Shown in pieces: positions 30,957 to 39,424 of a DNA stretch of 64,000 nucleotides. Source of the DNA: Prochlorococcus sp. AG-402-P18 (GTDB taxonomy: Bacteria; Cyanobacteriota; Cyanobacteriia; PCC-6307; Cyanobiaceae); assembly GCA_003216275.1 (NCBI GenBank), contig QCJC01000001.1, positions 62,001 through 126,000 on the forward strand, given 5' to 3'. The stretch's first letter is position 1. Each line of letters begins with the position of its first letter. The notes under the pieces were generated by a model. It was given only the letters and a program-made list of their open reading frames with translations, had not been told where the DNA came from and searched no databases. A program made the translations under genes and the position numbers.

Positions 30957-31979
30957 ATGCAAACAAAGATGAATGATTTCGAGGAGATTAGACCTTTAAC
31001 TATTTTAATAACTGGTGGCTCATCAGGCATTGGTTATCAAGCAGTGCTTAAATTACTATCTCTTGGACATAATATTATTTTACCATGCAGAAATTTACTT
31101 AGGGCAAATAAAATATTGAGTAGTTTTGTTAATATTCCATCATCTTATTTATCTAATAAAGGTAATATTTATACGCCAATAATGGATTTATCCGATTTAA
31201 ATAGTATTGATTTATTTTGTTCAGAGCTAAAGAAAAGCAGATTTAAAATTGATGTTTTGATTTTAAATGCTGGCCTTCAATATACAGGTTCAAAGGAACC
31301 TAGACTATCAACTCAAGGTATTGAATTAACTTTTGCGGTGAATCACTTATCACATTTTTATTTAACGCAAAATGTTTTACCTTTATTAAATATAAGTAAA
31401 GAATCTAAAATAATAATTACCTCCTCAGAAGTTCATAATCCTATGAGCTCTGGTGGAAAAGTAGGAGCCAAGGCGAGCTTGGGAAACTTGATGGGATTAG
31501 AAGGTGGTTCTGGATTTGAAATGATTGATGGAAATAGATTTAATGCCGATAAAGCTTATAAAGATAGTAAATTATGTAACATTTTATTTGGAAAAGAATT
31601 ATGCAAGAAATTGATTCAAAAAAAACTATATATACCAGTAATTACATGGGCTCCTGGTTTAGTTATCTCTAGAAATAGTGAGGGATTTTTTCGGTATAGT
31701 AGACAATATAATAGACTGGGTCAAATATTATTTGCTTTTTTAGCTAGGGATCTGTTAAGGATATCTACATCAAATAAGAAAGCAGGTTTACTCTTAACTA
31801 AGTTGGTTTGTGACTATCAATATAATAAACTAGGCTTTAATTATTATAGTAATAGAGTTATCTCACCGGGCAAATTTATTTTTGAAAAAACTAATATAAG
31901 TAATGAAGCTGAAAAGGAGGGACTAGGAAAAAGGTTATGGGAATTATCTGAGCAAATAATTAATCAACAAGCTGGATAA
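30957..31979 (+). CDS. SDR related to light-dependent protochlorophyllide oxidoreductase (diverged paralogue)
   Basis: ITGGSSGIGYQAV, GGKVGAKASLGNLMGLE, MIDGNRFNADKAYKDSKLCN are POR-type motifs, but PGC is changed to PGL. Confidence 0.8.
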   Translation: MQTKMNDFEEIRPLTILITGGSSGIGYQAVLKLLSLGHNIILPCRNLLRANKILSSFVNIPSSYLSNKGNIYTPIMDLSDLNSIDLFCSELKKSRFKIDVLILNAGLQYTGSKEPRLSTQGIELTFAVNHLSHFYLTQNVLPLLNISKESKIIITSSEVHNPMSSGGKVGAKASLGNLMGLEGGSGFEMIDGNRFNADKAYKDSKLCNILFGKELCKKLIQKKLYIPVITWAPGLVISRNSEGFFRYSRQYNRLGQILFAFLARDLLRISTSNKKAGLLLTKLVCDYQYNKLGFNYYSNRVISPGKFIFEKTNISNEAEKEGLGKRLWELSEQIINQQAG

Positions 31980-31986
31980 ACAATTT

Positions 31987-33003
31987 TTAATTGTTAAGAT
32001 AAATTGTTTGAGTTGGGTATGCAAAACTAATATTTTCATCTTTAAATTTCTTCATGATTTCAAGATTTATTTCTTGTTGTGCCGACATTGCTAGAACATA
32101 ATCGCTTGTGGGAATGTAATAGACAAGTTCAAAATCAAGACTACTATTTGCAAATTCGATGAAGTGACATCTGTCGAAAATTGCATTTTCAGTTTTATCA
32201 ACAATATTTTTAATTATTTCAGGTATACTTTTTACCTGTTCATATGTGGTGTCATAAATAACCCCCAATTTGTGAACCAGTCTTCTTTGCTTCATCTCAG
32301 CATAATTAGAAATAACTCCATTTGTAAGCCTACTATTACTCATTATAATCGCTTCTCCGTTTATACTTTTTAAGCGTGTTGACCTAACACCCACCCTCTC
32401 AACTTTTGCCCAAATGCCATCAATATGAATAAATTGTCCACTTTGGAATGGTTTATCAAGAAGGATCGTAATGTATTCAAAGAACTCTTGAACTGGTTCC
32501 TTAAGCGCTAGACCTGCACCAATGCCTCCAGCACTTAAAAGTGCCCATATAGCAGCCATTTGGACACCCATATTTTGAAGGTAAAAAATAATTCCGATGC
32601 TCCAGACTGATGCTCTCACCATTGGACTAAGTGATCGAATCATTTCACTAATAGATTGATCATTGATTTTGTTTGCCCATCTTTGTATTATTTTTAAAAA
32701 AACTCTATTTATTAATCGAACTATATAAATAAGGCAAATGAATTTACTTATACCAATTAATGTCTTATCTACTATTCCACCAATGAGTAGAACTTTCCAA
32801 GCAACTATAAAACTTAAGATAAAACCCAAAGGTTTAATAGTATCAACCAAAAGAGAAGCTATATAGTCATCTGTTTTGCTTTGAGTCGCAGAGGTTATTT
32901 TCCTTAATGCTTTTCTTAGGATTTTTGGACTTATTAAAGAAATAAGACAACCTATACCAAATGTGAGTAAGGAAATTATGAGGTTTTTATAAAATTCATC
33001 CAT
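31987..33003 (-). CDS. MscS-family mechanosensitive channel
   Basis: GGIGAGLALKEPVQEFFEYITILLDKPFQSGQFIHIDGIWAKVERVGVRSTRLKSINGEAIIMSNSRLTNGVISNY. Confidence 0.9.
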   Translation of the reverse strand: MDEFYKNLIISLLTFGIGCLISLISPKILRKALRKITSATQSKTDDYIASLLVDTIKPLGFILSFIVAWKVLLIGGIVDKTLIGISKFICLIYIVRLINRVFLKIIQRWANKINDQSISEMIRSLSPMVRASVWSIGIIFYLQNMGVQMAAIWALLSAGGIGAGLALKEPVQEFFEYITILLDKPFQSGQFIHIDGIWAKVERVGVRSTRLKSINGEAIIMSNSRLTNGVISNYAEMKQRRLVHKLGVIYDTTYEQVKSIPEIIKNIVDKTENAIFDRCHFIEFANSSLDFELVYYIPTSDYVLAMSAQQEINLEIMKKFKDENISFAYPTQTIYLNN

Positions 33004-34308: not shown

Positions 34309-35253
34309 TTAATTTAATTCTCCTCCACAACTTGAGCCTGCTCCTGCCGTACATCCAAAACAATGGTTTCCTATTGATATAGGACTATTCTTTATTGATG
34401 TCTGTGATATTAATAAGTCATTTAAATGTTTGATAGATCCCTTTTTCTTCATTCCTAATTGTTGGTTAAAATCGCAATCATATAGATAGCCCCTCCAATC
34501 AACACTGAGAGTGGTTTTACACATTACTGAGCTTAGGTTTTTGGAATTATGATTGTCTTCCAACAATTTTTTGTATTTTTTAAGTTCACCTGTTTGATTT
34601 AAAAATTTTTCATATCTATTGATTGGCATATTAGCTAATACAAATAAATTAGAAAAGAAGATACCATATCTATTTTTAAGTTCAAGCTTATATTTATATT
34701 CTAATTCTTGTTGAGATGGAGGGAGTTGAGGACTACTTGGATTATATACAAGATTTAAGATGAGTCCTGTATCTTTTTTACCATAGCCATAATAATTAAG
34801 ATTTTTAAGGGCTAGTATACTTTTTTCGAATACACCTTTACCTCTTTGGTTATCTACATTCTCTTGAAGATAACATGGAAGAGAAGCTGTTATCTGTACT
34901 GTATTATCGGCTAAAAATTTAGCTAAATTCTCATAACCTGGTTCTGTAAGTATAGTTAAATTACATCTATCAATAACTTCAACATTATTGCTACGTACTT
35001 CTTTAACTAATTCTTTGAATTTTGGATGAAGTTCTGGAGCTCCCCCTGTAATGTCTAGTAATTTAATATTCTTAGCTTTTATAACTCTAGGTATCAGTTT
35101 AATGATTTCATTGCTCATCATTTCTGTTCTGCTTGGACCTGCATTGACATGACAATGACTACACGCTTGATTGCATTTGTATCCTATATTAATTTGTAAA
35201 GTCTCAAGATTGTCTCTATATATGCTAGGAAACCTTGTTTGTCTAACTTCCAT
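34309..35253 (-). CDS. arsS: Radical SAM protein, ArsS-like (arsenosugar biosynthesis) with DUF3641-like C-terminus
   Basis: CNQACSHCHVNAGPSRTEMMS, LDITGGAPELHPKFKELV, MCKTTLSVDWRGYLYDCDFNQQLG, HCFGCTAGAGSSCGGEL. Confidence 0.85.
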   Translation of the reverse strand: MEVRQTRFPSIYRDNLETLQINIGYKCNQACSHCHVNAGPSRTEMMSNEIIKLIPRVIKAKNIKLLDITGGAPELHPKFKELVKEVRSNNVEVIDRCNLTILTEPGYENLAKFLADNTVQITASLPCYLQENVDNQRGKGVFEKSILALKNLNYYGYGKKDTGLILNLVYNPSSPQLPPSQQELEYKYKLELKNRYGIFFSNLFVLANMPINRYEKFLNQTGELKKYKKLLEDNHNSKNLSSVMCKTTLSVDWRGYLYDCDFNQQLGMKKKGSIKHLNDLLISQTSIKNSPISIGNHCFGCTAGAGSSCGGELN

Positions 35254-35345
35254 AGATTTAATTCTACGAATTAAATTTGTTAGTAATACTATAGTTAAGA
35301 TATTTATACCTGTGAGATTATTTCATAAAATATTCATTAGTTTTT

Positions 35346-36545
35346 TCAATGACTTCTAACCAGTTGTTTAAACCAATCTATATATTCATTTGGACCATCA
35401 TTGATAATCATATTAAACTTTAACTCGTCATTAGAATCACTAATACCTGACATGTCAGATCCCTTGATTTTGGGTCTAGATACTTGCTCGTTACAGCTAT
35501 TAACGAATATAACCTTATTCTTTTTTTTGTATACTATTCCTAATCTTTGAATCAAAGTTAAGAACCCTCTGTCACTTCCACCTCTCAACCATGAGTTTGT
35601 CTTATTGTCTTTTGTTGAAGTAACCGTATCCCCAACTCCTATTAAAAGCGGCATTTTTTCAATGGGGATTTTTTTCATACATAGTTTTACTAATCCATTA
35701 AGAGTCCTTGGTGCACTCCTTACATTAAAATTTTCTCCAAAAGGATAGACTCCAGTTTTAGATGAAATATATTTATTTAAAAGCAATAAAAGGCCTGCTT
35801 CTTTTATTGCTCCTTTGATAATGAACTGAATATCTGTAGTTCCAAACTCCATTTCTGATGCATATTTCATGATCTCTGTTCCTTTTCTTAATCCTAAGTT
35901 TGGCATCATATGTAGATAGAATGAGTTCTTCAAACCAATTCCGTCTGAAACTTCAATTAGATTATTCATTATCTTTTCCATTATTAATTGTAATTCCCTT
36001 ACTTTTTTGAGATCGCTTTTGATGGTGCTAAATATCTCATTAAAATTTAAAGTAGGTGTAAAACGTGTATCACATATAGCTACATCAATTAATTTATTTA
36101 TTTTATCGCTTTTAAGATTTGGGAAAAAGACTTTTAATTCTTTGCGTAACATCTTGTGCATTAATTCTGGTACTTTCGCCAAAAACTCAATCTCATTAAT
36201 TTCTATTCCTGGATGTGATGAGTTGCCATACCTATCTTGATACTCAACTCCGCAAGCAGCAAGACCAGGCAAGTAAAGACCATCTGCTTTCGCTTTGGTT
36301 TTAGAATTAAGTGCTTTCTCCACTAATCTATTAACCCCTCTTCTGCCTTCATGTTCACCACAAGTTAAGACTGAAAAGTTTTCTCCTAACTTTGAAACAT
36401 CATTAACATACTCTTTGTTTATTTCTCTTTTGAGGGGGTCTTGAACTAATGGAATACATACACCATCAAGATCTTGTATTAATAGAAAATTATTTTCATT
36501 TATAATTGTTCTAACAACTTCTTCTTTTTTACTAATCATTTCCAT
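35346..36545 (-). CDS. stpA: Glucosylglycerol-phosphate phosphatase-like protein (StpA/GgpP family)
   Basis: LIQDLDGVCIPLVQDPL, LYLPGLAACGVEYQDRYG...SHPG, YPFGENFNVRSAPRT, LLIGVGDTVTS...RGGSDRGFLTLIQ align by eye to Synechocystis StpA as I remember it. Confidence 0.85.
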   Translation of the reverse strand: MEMISKKEEVVRTIINENNFLLIQDLDGVCIPLVQDPLKREINKEYVNDVSKLGENFSVLTCGEHEGRRGVNRLVEKALNSKTKAKADGLYLPGLAACGVEYQDRYGNSSHPGIEINEIEFLAKVPELMHKMLRKELKVFFPNLKSDKINKLIDVAICDTRFTPTLNFNEIFSTIKSDLKKVRELQLIMEKIMNNLIEVSDGIGLKNSFYLHMMPNLGLRKGTEIMKYASEMEFGTTDIQFIIKGAIKEAGLLLLLNKYISSKTGVYPFGENFNVRSAPRTLNGLVKLCMKKIPIEKMPLLIGVGDTVTSTKDNKTNSWLRGGSDRGFLTLIQRLGIVYKKKNKVIFVNSCNEQVSRPKIKGSDMSGISDSNDELKFNMIINDGPNEYIDWFKQLVRSH

Positions 36546-36708
36546 TAAAGAAGCTTTGTATATAATTTTATTCTAGATCAAATGAATTTATTTTTCTATA
36601 ATAGTTCTTATTCTTCATAAGTTTATAGTCATTCACTCATTTATTATAATAACTATTTTTCAAACTTATAATCCTATTGTATATAATGCTGATGCATGCA
36701 AATAGATT

Positions 36709-38244
36709 GTGTTTGAAAAGGATTTAATCAATAGCTTTTTTAATGAGCCTTACTCAAGTAAGTCTATATCTGAAAGACTTAGAAAGGTTTTGAATGGAAA
36801 AGTAGGGTTTTATAGTGTTGGATTATATCCAGCTTCTCTTGCATACAACTGCGCTATGCAAAATCAAGGATTAAATATACTTTTAGCTCCAAGAATTGGA
36901 AGAGAACTTTTTGGAGCCTTCTCTGATGATGACCTTTCTGAAATGGACGATAATATAAAAGATAAAATTGAATTTATGGCAATTTCAAAGGATGATAAAC
37001 TGAAACGATATAATACTCTTGAAGACTTAATAATTAACTGTGAATTAGTTATCTTAAGTTCAAATAGTAACCATATAATAAATGATGTAAACTTAGCTTT
37101 TAAATTAAGAAAAGAACTTAATCGAGAAAATGTTCTAATTGCATGCTTGGTAGGTTCATTTTGTTATGACGAAAATTTGAATGAATCTTTTGTATTGTGT
37201 GAAAAATTAAACAATCTAGCTTTTTTCTCTGGATTTCATAGACATGGTGCACTGCGTAACCCATTAGATAGCTTTACAGCTAATTTCTGCCATCCTGATG
37301 CAATGAATGCAATTTTAGGAGCAAAATTACTGAATAAAATCTCTCCAAATATACAAGTTTCAGCAGGTGTGCATAATATTGAAGGTCAATATATAAAAGC
37401 TGCTAAAAATATTTCTTCAATTCTAGCCGGGTTTGGTCATGCTTTTCATAAGAAGAATACTGGATTACTTCCAACTTTATTAACACTATTGTTAGATCAA
37501 TGTTTAGATCAAGCTGCTTATGTTTCCATGAGTCGATCAGATAGGGAGAATTTATACCAAAATCAACCTTTTCCAATTACAGAGCTTGGATATGGTGTTC
37601 AAAGAATAGAAGCTTCTCTTTTAGAGGATGGTGATTTTGTTCAAGTAAGAGATCACACTTTTAGCCAATTGACTGCAATGGTTGCTGATGTAAGAGGGAG
37701 TATGATGTTACCTTCAAGTGGTAGACCAACAAGGAACTTTCAAGCTGGTGAAATTTTAGCGAAAAGGATGATTGACTACCAAAGATGTCCACATGGAGTT
37801 GAGGAGTTTATTCAATGGTGTGAAAGATCTGATCTTAAAAGAGGCGCTTTAGAAGGGATAAATTCATTAAAGTATTGGCCATATATTATTAAAAAATATT
37901 TTATACCCCTAAATGCTTCTTCAATGATAAACCTACTATATATGTGTATTTTAGGCTCAGAGGATATTAAGGAAGATATTTATGATGTTATGACAAATAG
38001 TCGTGAACTTACAAATTATTGTCAGGAATCTGTTAAACCTATTCATAGTAAAAATATATCTAATTCATTAGATAATCTCGATTCTAAAAATGCAATTGAA
38101 TTTATAAATAAATCACTTACTAGTAAAAATTGTCAATTTAAACAGTTAGAAGATTTAGATTTTTGTGAAAAACCTTTTTCAAAAGACAAGCCAACTTATA
38201 ATAAAGTTATGGATTATATTGAAAATTACTTGTTAGATTTTTAA
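36709..38244 (+). CDS. NAD(P)-binding, glycerol-3-phosphate-dehydrogenase-like protein of unclear substrate (GTG start)
   Basis: N-terminal Rossmann-like GFYSVGLYPASLAYNCAMQNQGLNILLAPR; CELVILSSNSNHI; long alpha-helical C-terminal region. Confidence 0.55.
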   Translation: MFEKDLINSFFNEPYSSKSISERLRKVLNGKVGFYSVGLYPASLAYNCAMQNQGLNILLAPRIGRELFGAFSDDDLSEMDDNIKDKIEFMAISKDDKLKRYNTLEDLIINCELVILSSNSNHIINDVNLAFKLRKELNRENVLIACLVGSFCYDENLNESFVLCEKLNNLAFFSGFHRHGALRNPLDSFTANFCHPDAMNAILGAKLLNKISPNIQVSAGVHNIEGQYIKAAKNISSILAGFGHAFHKKNTGLLPTLLTLLLDQCLDQAAYVSMSRSDRENLYQNQPFPITELGYGVQRIEASLLEDGDFVQVRDHTFSQLTAMVADVRGSMMLPSSGRPTRNFQAGEILAKRMIDYQRCPHGVEEFIQWCERSDLKRGALEGINSLKYWPYIIKKYFIPLNASSMINLLYMCILGSEDIKEDIYDVMTNSRELTNYCQESVKPIHSKNISNSLDNLDSKNAIEFINKSLTSKNCQFKQLEDLDFCEKPFSKDKPTYNKVMDYIENYLLDF

Positions 38245-38260
38245 TGATCAAGTAAACTTT

Positions 38261-39424
38261 ATGTATTCTGATAAATTAAATCTAATAATACAAAATTTCT
38301 TTATAGGAACAAAGGTCTTACAAATAAATTTAGTAAACAAAGGTCATATTAATATGACTTATATTGTTGAACACTTATACCGTGGAAAAAAATATAAATT
38401 TATTTTACAGAGGCTAAGCAAGATATTTGAGTCACATGAAATAGTTAACATGAATCATAAATTATTAACTGATCATTTTAATAAGAAGCTGAAAAATAAT
38501 TATTTTACAATTTATAAAAAAAGATGGGTATTACCAAATTTAATTATTTGTGAATCAAACCAGACTTTTGTTTTTCAATTTGAGTCTTATTCCTGGCGAG
38601 CTATGGAATATATAGATGATACTTTTAGCTTGGATTTGCTAGAAGATGAAAAGATGTCTTATCAGACTGGTCTTGGCCTTTCTAAGTTTCATATAGCGTT
38701 TTCAGATATGCAACCTTCAAGTATATCAACTACAATTAAGAATTTTCACAACACTAGATACTACTTGGATAAATATATTATAGCTCTTAAATATTTCAAT
38801 TTTTCAAAAATAGATAAGAAAGTAAATCAAAGGCTAAATAATATAATTTATAATATATCTAACCATATTAATTATATTGAATACTTACTTACTTCTTTAA
38901 AGAAACAATCAATAGAAAGAAAAATTATACATGGAGATCCCAAGCTAAGTAATTTTCTTTTTGACAAGAAATATAAATTTGTAGTTTCATTAGTTGATCT
39001 GGATACGATTTCTTCTGGATATTTACTTACTGATATAGCTGATTGTATTCGCTCTATTTGTAATCTATCAGGCGAGGAGCCTGAAAACATTGATAATGTC
39101 AGCTTTGATATTAATTGTTTTAATTATTTTCTTAGAGGCTACTTTTCAATAAATAACCATAGAAAACATTCTTCCTTTAGGTTCGTTCTGGAATTTATTT
39201 ATGTAATCATCTTTGAATTAACTATTAGATTCCTAACAGATTTCTTGCAGTCTAACAGGTATTTTAAAATCGAATATGAAACTCATAATTTATATAGAGC
39301 AGAGGTTCAATTCCGACTGCTTTACAGTTTTATGACAAAAATTTCTAATTTATCAGAAGTTATTGATGAAATTGGTATTTCCAGAGGGTCAGATTTTATC
39401 TCAAATGTGCGAACATTTATTTAG
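38261..39424 (+). CDS. Phosphotransferase (APH/NahK-like sugar kinase)
   Basis: VNKGHINMTYIV, FILQRLSKIFESHEIVNMNH, IIHGDPKLSNFLFD, VSLVDLDTISSGYLLTDIADCIRSICN resemble N-acetylhexosamine kinase-type motifs. Confidence 0.75.
   Translation: MYSDKLNLIIQNFFIGTKVLQINLVNKGHINMTYIVEHLYRGKKYKFILQRLSKIFESHEIVNMNHKLLTDHFNKKLKNNYFTIYKKRWVLPNLIICESNQTFVFQFESYSWRAMEYIDDTFSLDLLEDEKMSYQTGLGLSKFHIAFSDMQPSSISTTIKNFHNTRYYLDKYIIALKYFNFSKIDKKVNQRLNNIIYNISNHINYIEYLLTSLKKQSIERKIIHGDPKLSNFLFDKKYKFVVSLVDLDTISSGYLLTDIADCIRSICNLSGEEPENIDNVSFDINCFNYFLRGYFSINNHRKHSSFRFVLEFIYVIIFELTIRFLTDFLQSNRYFKIEYETHNLYRAEVQFRLLYSFMTKISNLSEVIDEIGISRGSDFISNVRTFI

Follow-up and report, generated by a model that had tools for sequence, protein, structure and literature searches.

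The window analysed here, a stretch of 64,000 nucleotides from the genome of Prochlorococcus sp. AG-402-P18, carries an arsS-like gene and a stpA/ggpP-like gene on one strand and, divergent from them, genes for a dehydrogenase-like protein of 511 residues (DH511) and a sugar kinase. This locus raises the question of which of the four genes belong together and what DH511 does. A preliminary description had proposed that all four form a single pathway for an (arseno)sugar-glycerol or another compatible solute. The four genes were confirmed as intact open reading frames at the positions described (Table 1), separated in order by 92, 163, and 16 nt, with the gaps agreeing within one base (92 instead of 93). 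The arsS-like and stpA-like identities held, both products scoring above the family cut-offs (300 bits for TIGR04167 and 365.5 bits for TIGR02399). The NahK-like call for the kinase was likewise upheld by the match to 4wh1; its product keeps the catalytic H-x-D (H-G-D-P-K) and GHIN motifs, and D226 and D246 are invariant across 22 homologues. As had been noted, neither a ggpS-like nor an arsM-like gene lies beside the locus.

Table 1. Features of the ggpP//dh511 locus (window positions).
Feature	Position	Strand	Size	Match or remark
ArsS-family radical SAM protein	34309-35253	-	314 aa	TIGR04167, 452.9 bits
GgpP/StpA, glucosylglycerol-3-phosphate phosphatase family	35346-36545	-	399 aa	TIGR02399, 529 bits; PF09506, 551 bits
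ggpP//dh511 divergent intergenic region	36546-36708	.	163 bp	
GTATATAAT, conserved -10-like element	36679-36687	+		21 nt upstream of dh511 start codon
DH511, candidate G3P dehydrogenase, divergent GPDH fold	36709-38244	+	511 aa	GTG start
NahK-like sugar kinase	38261-39424	+	387 aa	PDB NahK 4wh1, E 2.8e-26

When gene neighborhoods were compared, the gene order was found to be conserved within the window's genus and partly also far outside it, so the arrangement is not a matter of chance. This shared locus is what speaks for a single pathway of four genes; the phylogenetic profiles of ArsS and the kinase speak against it. Of the 201 genomes in the GTDB family of the window, 176 encode ArsS, as do 129 of the 131 good ones (completeness of 90% or more, contamination of 5% or less), genomes without ggpP among them; in RCC307 (G024) ArsS was located at 671 kb, about 0.55 Mb from ggpP at 1,227 kb. 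ArsS is a syntenic neighbor and is not specific to the ggpP/dh511 locus. The kinase is distributed independently of DH511: it was found in 140 of the 201 genomes, 54 of them without DH511, was not detected in 14 DH511-bearing genomes of the family, and is missing from nine g18 genomes that retain ggpP and dh511, one of which has a locus (L147) carrying arsS, ggpP, and dh511. It is probably a neighbor that does not share the function of ggpP and dh511. Unrelated profiles of arsS and the kinase had been named in the preliminary description as grounds for abandoning its model, and on these profiles the four-gene arsenosugar model was rejected; we give it next to no credence. The compatible-solute idea survived for ggpP and dh511, through their co-occurrence, their divergent adjacency, and the glucosylglycerol cluster of RCC307, and fell for the four genes as a whole. 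The conserved unit of the locus is the ggpP//dh511 pair.

Several further features of these neighborhoods were recorded. Many marine Synechococcus (loci L059, L073, L075, and L091 among others) have sbcC/sbcD-like genes separating dh511 from the kinase gene, which breaks the apparent dh511-kinase operon there. An MscS-type mechanosensitive channel, encoded in the window at 31987-33003 (minus strand), lies near arsS-ggpP in many loci of Prochlorococcus (37 of 81 sampled, the window included) and could serve in osmolyte release. A short-chain dehydrogenase (30957-31979, plus strand) conserved in Prochlorococcus loci resembles protochlorophyllide reductase and would be a paralogue of it, since its score of 158 bits lies below the cut-off of 331. 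The DH511 of the g18 genome at L147 (4860-6368), probably a high-light Prochlorococcus, keeps the Lys-Asn and Arg-Asn motifs described below, although its branch in the tree is very long, at 2.5 changes per site.

The association of the pair is close. Found in 106 of the 201 family genomes, ggpP was present in 99 of the 100 that carry DH511, and in 83 genomes the two genes are divergent within about 10 kb, the gap being 600 bp or less in 66, up to 6 kb in 16, and 10 kb in one. Fisher's test for co-occurrence gave P = 1e-47, a value inflated by relatedness, so that the pattern was relied on and not the number. Within the intergenic region, GTATATAAT is nearly invariant across the aligned loci of the genus. 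A promoter scan also matched this element, but its matches overall showed no excess over shuffled sequences, so the significance of the element rests on its conservation across genomes. Its sequence and position upstream of dh511 are consistent with a -10 box.

DH511 itself gave no match above threshold in sequence searches of Pfam, NCBIfam, or the PDB. An AlphaFold (AF2) model built from 43 homologues reached a pLDDT of 82.8 and a pTM of 0.84, with a low-confidence loop at residues 296-320, and has the overall fold of GPDHs, a Rossmann domain followed by a helical C-domain. When this model was compared with 350,542 PDB chains using Foldseek, the top 13 matches were all G3P dehydrogenases (E 1.3e-9 to 8.1e-8, probability 1.00), and the next fold, P5C reductase, was more than an order of magnitude weaker (E 5.6e-6). 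TM-scores were 0.58-0.70 by target length for single-domain enzymes and modest, 0.42-0.48, by query length. The structure prediction thus bore out the earlier call of a G3P-dehydrogenase-like protein, a resemblance that is clear from structure only.

Sequence homology between DH511 and GpsA was not significant with either profile-profile hhalign or HMMER. The weak hhalign alignment with cyanobacterial GpsA (E 0.42, not significant) placed the DH511 motif IKAAKN on GALKN, and a HMMER local alignment of insignificant score placed PTRNFQAG on LSRNYRCG. These segments correspond in GpsA to the catalytic Lys-Asn opening the C-domain helix and to the substrate-binding Arg-Asn pair. As judged from sequence, the DH511 residues K233, N234, R342, and N343 are invariant in the 43 homologues. 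Though weak, the sequence evidence agrees with the fold. PF07479 was matched below threshold in some homologues (12-15 bits in those shown, against a cut-off of 25; best E 0.0087), in one case over residues 310-422. The dinucleotide loop reads S36-x-G38-x-x-P41, invariant in the 43 homologues, as against G-x-G-x-x-G in GPDHs, and cofactor binding may differ from theirs. In human GPD1, the second active-site lysine is K120, and the active-site Asp and Thr are D260 and T264. Alignment by eye revealed no DH511 equivalent of K120, and D327 and S331 fitted D260 and T264 only with a loop insertion; the ungapped HMMER register sets S331 at the Asp. The protein ends in a helical C-terminal extension of about 100 residues. 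DH511 would accordingly work like a G3P dehydrogenase, yet the dinucleotide loop, the Pfam score below cut-off, and the C-terminal extension place it outside the GpsA family proper. No relatives were found in phages or plasmids, PADLOC returned no match, and no publication found in the open-access literature names the protein.

sn-Glycerol-3-phosphate forms the backbone of bacterial membrane lipids, and the distribution of DH511 was compared with that of the enzymes GpsA, GlpK, and GlpD (search thresholds of E 1e-3, 1e-60, and 1e-40, respectively). Among the 201 family genomes, 100 encode DH511, 91 GpsA, 22 both, and 32 neither. In the good genomes (DH511 in 75, GpsA in 74, both in 20), at least one of the two was present in 129 of 131. 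This complementarity would not by itself point to DH511, since a similar profile is shown by any marine-core gene, ggpP included. The assignment of DH511 as a GPDH rests on the conjunction of this profile with the independently obtained fold. In the two exceptions (G013 and G073), the contig breaks off 127 and 3 bases, respectively, after the match to ggpP, just where dh511 is expected to begin. In a draw of 369 genomes across the phylum, DH511 occurred in 45, only one of which, from the same class, lay outside the family (G272). DH511 genes of Leptolyngbyaceae and Xenococcaceae (L083, L098, L100, and L111) have unrelated neighbors and group with SC5.2-type picocyanobacteria in the tree; some horizontal transfer between lineages is possible on this grouping.

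This distribution touches on a published gap. EC 1.1.1.94, the NAD(P)-dependent enzyme, was left unannotated in Prochlorococcus strains and WH7803 (PMC3369817), and among picocyanobacteria gpsA has been assigned to freshwater lineages, an FAD-dependent enzyme to marine and brackish ones, and both to the brackish SC5.2 (PMC9361551). Canonical GpsA was not found in the genome of the window (G000, completeness 96.9%), and at the thresholds given above neither this FAD enzyme (GlpD) nor glycerol kinase (GlpK) was detected in the window's genus, so neither was retained as a route to G3P there. GpsA, GlpK, and GlpD are all missing from 38 DH511 genomes, including that of the window. These counts bear on the view that DH511, with its GPDH fold, serves compatible-solute metabolism and acts on a different substrate, such as a glycosylglycerol phosphate or a sugar phosphate, with Prochlorococcus obtaining its G3P from an unknown enzyme. 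The tight tie to GgpP, the unusual S-x-G-x-x-P loop, a conserved H177-R178-H179, and the retention of DH511 beside gpsA in 22 genomes would all suit such an enzyme. We nevertheless consider it unlikely, since DH511 is kept in genomes without GgpS, where glucosylglycerol synthesis is not expected, and since the essential G3P step would be unfilled in the 38 genomes and would require a second unknown enzyme.

The genomic setting of dh511 in the RCC307 lineage points to a connection with glucosylglycerol. There, the order is glpK-glpD-GH13-ggpP//dh511-ggtA, followed by other ggt transporter genes and ggpS, so that dh511, between ggpP and ggtA, is embedded in a complete glucosylglycerol cluster; gpsA is kept as well. 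GgpS and GgpP of this cluster scored above their NCBIfam cut-offs, GlpK passed PRK00047 and fell just below TIGR01311, and GlpD lay below the equivalog cut-off. Because the substrates of GgpS include G3P (PMC6753628), a G3P dehydrogenase fits this cluster. The complete genome G102, with ggpS, ggpP, and gpsA and without DH511, fits interchangeable G3P suppliers.

Two observations on these clusters stand apart. The GH13 protein between glpD and ggpP (L105:2908-4638 in RCC307; also L071, L077, and L104) is TreS-like, at 592 bits against a cut-off of 678, and is a candidate for the glucosylglycerol-degrading enzyme of marine picocyanobacteria without gghA, a stated gap (PMC6753628). At L146 (G083), a cluster of glpK, glpD, GH13, ggt genes, and ggpS occurs in a genome without a GgpP match, in which DH511 is encoded elsewhere.

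In the window's genome, by comparison, neither GgpS nor any GT20 protein was found, and GgpS was found in none of ten genomes of the genus (0/10), so a GgpS elsewhere in the genome was discarded as an explanation of the orphan GgpP. Orphan ggpP of Prochlorococcus has already been noted in the literature, and MIT9303, with ggpP and without ggpS, makes no glucosylglycerol (PMC11505929). Most Prochlorococcus have a truncated spsA without spp, and a takeover of this step by GgpP has been speculated (PMC11505929); GgpP would then now be a sucrose-phosphate phosphatase, beside dh511 only through inherited gene order. We regard this as a reasonable possibility, somewhat short of an even chance; it concerns GgpP alone and is compatible with DH511 as a G3P dehydrogenase.

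The pairing of a GPDH fold with a phosphatase also recalls the conversion of DHAP to G3P and on to glycerol by yeast GPD1 and GPP1 or by the fused Dunaliella enzyme. DH511 and GgpP could act in series in the same way, with Prochlorococcus that lack ggpS making glycerol. The persistence of ggpP and dh511 together without ggpS would be explained, GgpP is a phosphatase, and the Dunaliella GPDH (6iuy) was among the top fold matches of the DH511 model. If this were true, glycerol would be an unrecognised product of Prochlorococcus, the most abundant phototroph. We know of no glycerol accumulation in Prochlorococcus, and with GlpK not found, the glycerol could not be reused that way. A review lists sucrose, glucosylglycerate, and glycine betaine for Prochlorococcus (PMC6753628), and we hold the glycerol route to be quite improbable.

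Our preferred reading, with a probability of roughly 0.7, takes DH511 to be a divergent NAD(P)H-dependent G3P dehydrogenase that was probably recruited to serve glucosylglycerol synthesis, took the place of GpsA in marine picocyanobacteria, and persisted in Prochlorococcus after ggpS was lost. The analysis shows directly the fold, the distribution, the adjacency to ggpP, and, at the search thresholds given, the lack of known alternatives; the catalysis, cofactor, direction, and order of events that we infer would be as follows. DH511 would reduce DHAP to sn-glycerol-3-phosphate with NAD(P)H and probably originated or spread by supplying G3P to a glucosylglycerol cluster, in which GgpS would join ADP-glucose and G3P and GgpP would dephosphorylate the product. 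The earliest stage would be DH511 in such a cluster alongside gpsA. Canonical GpsA would then have become dispensable in marine Synechococcus and Prochlorococcus, and gpsA would have been lost in most marine lineages. Several Prochlorococcus lineages, the window's genus among them, would later have lost ggpS, glpK, and glpD while keeping DH511, which would be left as the one recognisable enzyme to provide G3P for their membrane lipids. If this is correct, one widely conserved, unnamed protein fills the published G3P-enzyme gap of marine picocyanobacteria, models of metabolism in major primary producers of the ocean would be corrected, and a gene from a salt-tolerance cluster would have displaced an essential one.

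Compared with known systems, DH511 resembles GpsA and GPD1 (PF01210 and PF07479) in fold, in the order of structural elements, and in the Lys-Asn and Arg-Asn motifs, and its distribution is complementary to that of GpsA; it differs in the S-x-G-x-x-P loop, an insertion near residues 296-320, the C-terminal extension, and an insignificant sequence match. In the yeast GPD1/GPP1 and Dunaliella (6iuy) systems, as here, a G3P dehydrogenase (in our case a candidate) is paired with a phosphatase, but the phosphatase of the DH511 locus belongs to the GgpP family and is separately encoded, and glycerol would be a predicted product. The known glucosylglycerol cluster (ggpS, ggpP, ggtABCD, glpK, and glpD) is shared in that ggpP adjoins dh511, which lies inside the clusters of RCC307 type, whereas in the window's genome, with ggpS, glpK, and glpD undetected, ggpP alone is left beside dh511. 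In other cyanobacteria, gpsA is found near ggpS and gghA (PMC6753628, Figure 6 legend). Both arrangements place a gene for a G3P-forming dehydrogenase (a putative one in the case of dh511) among glucosylglycerol genes, the one encoding canonical GpsA and the other a protein of the same fold whose sequence is not recognisably related.
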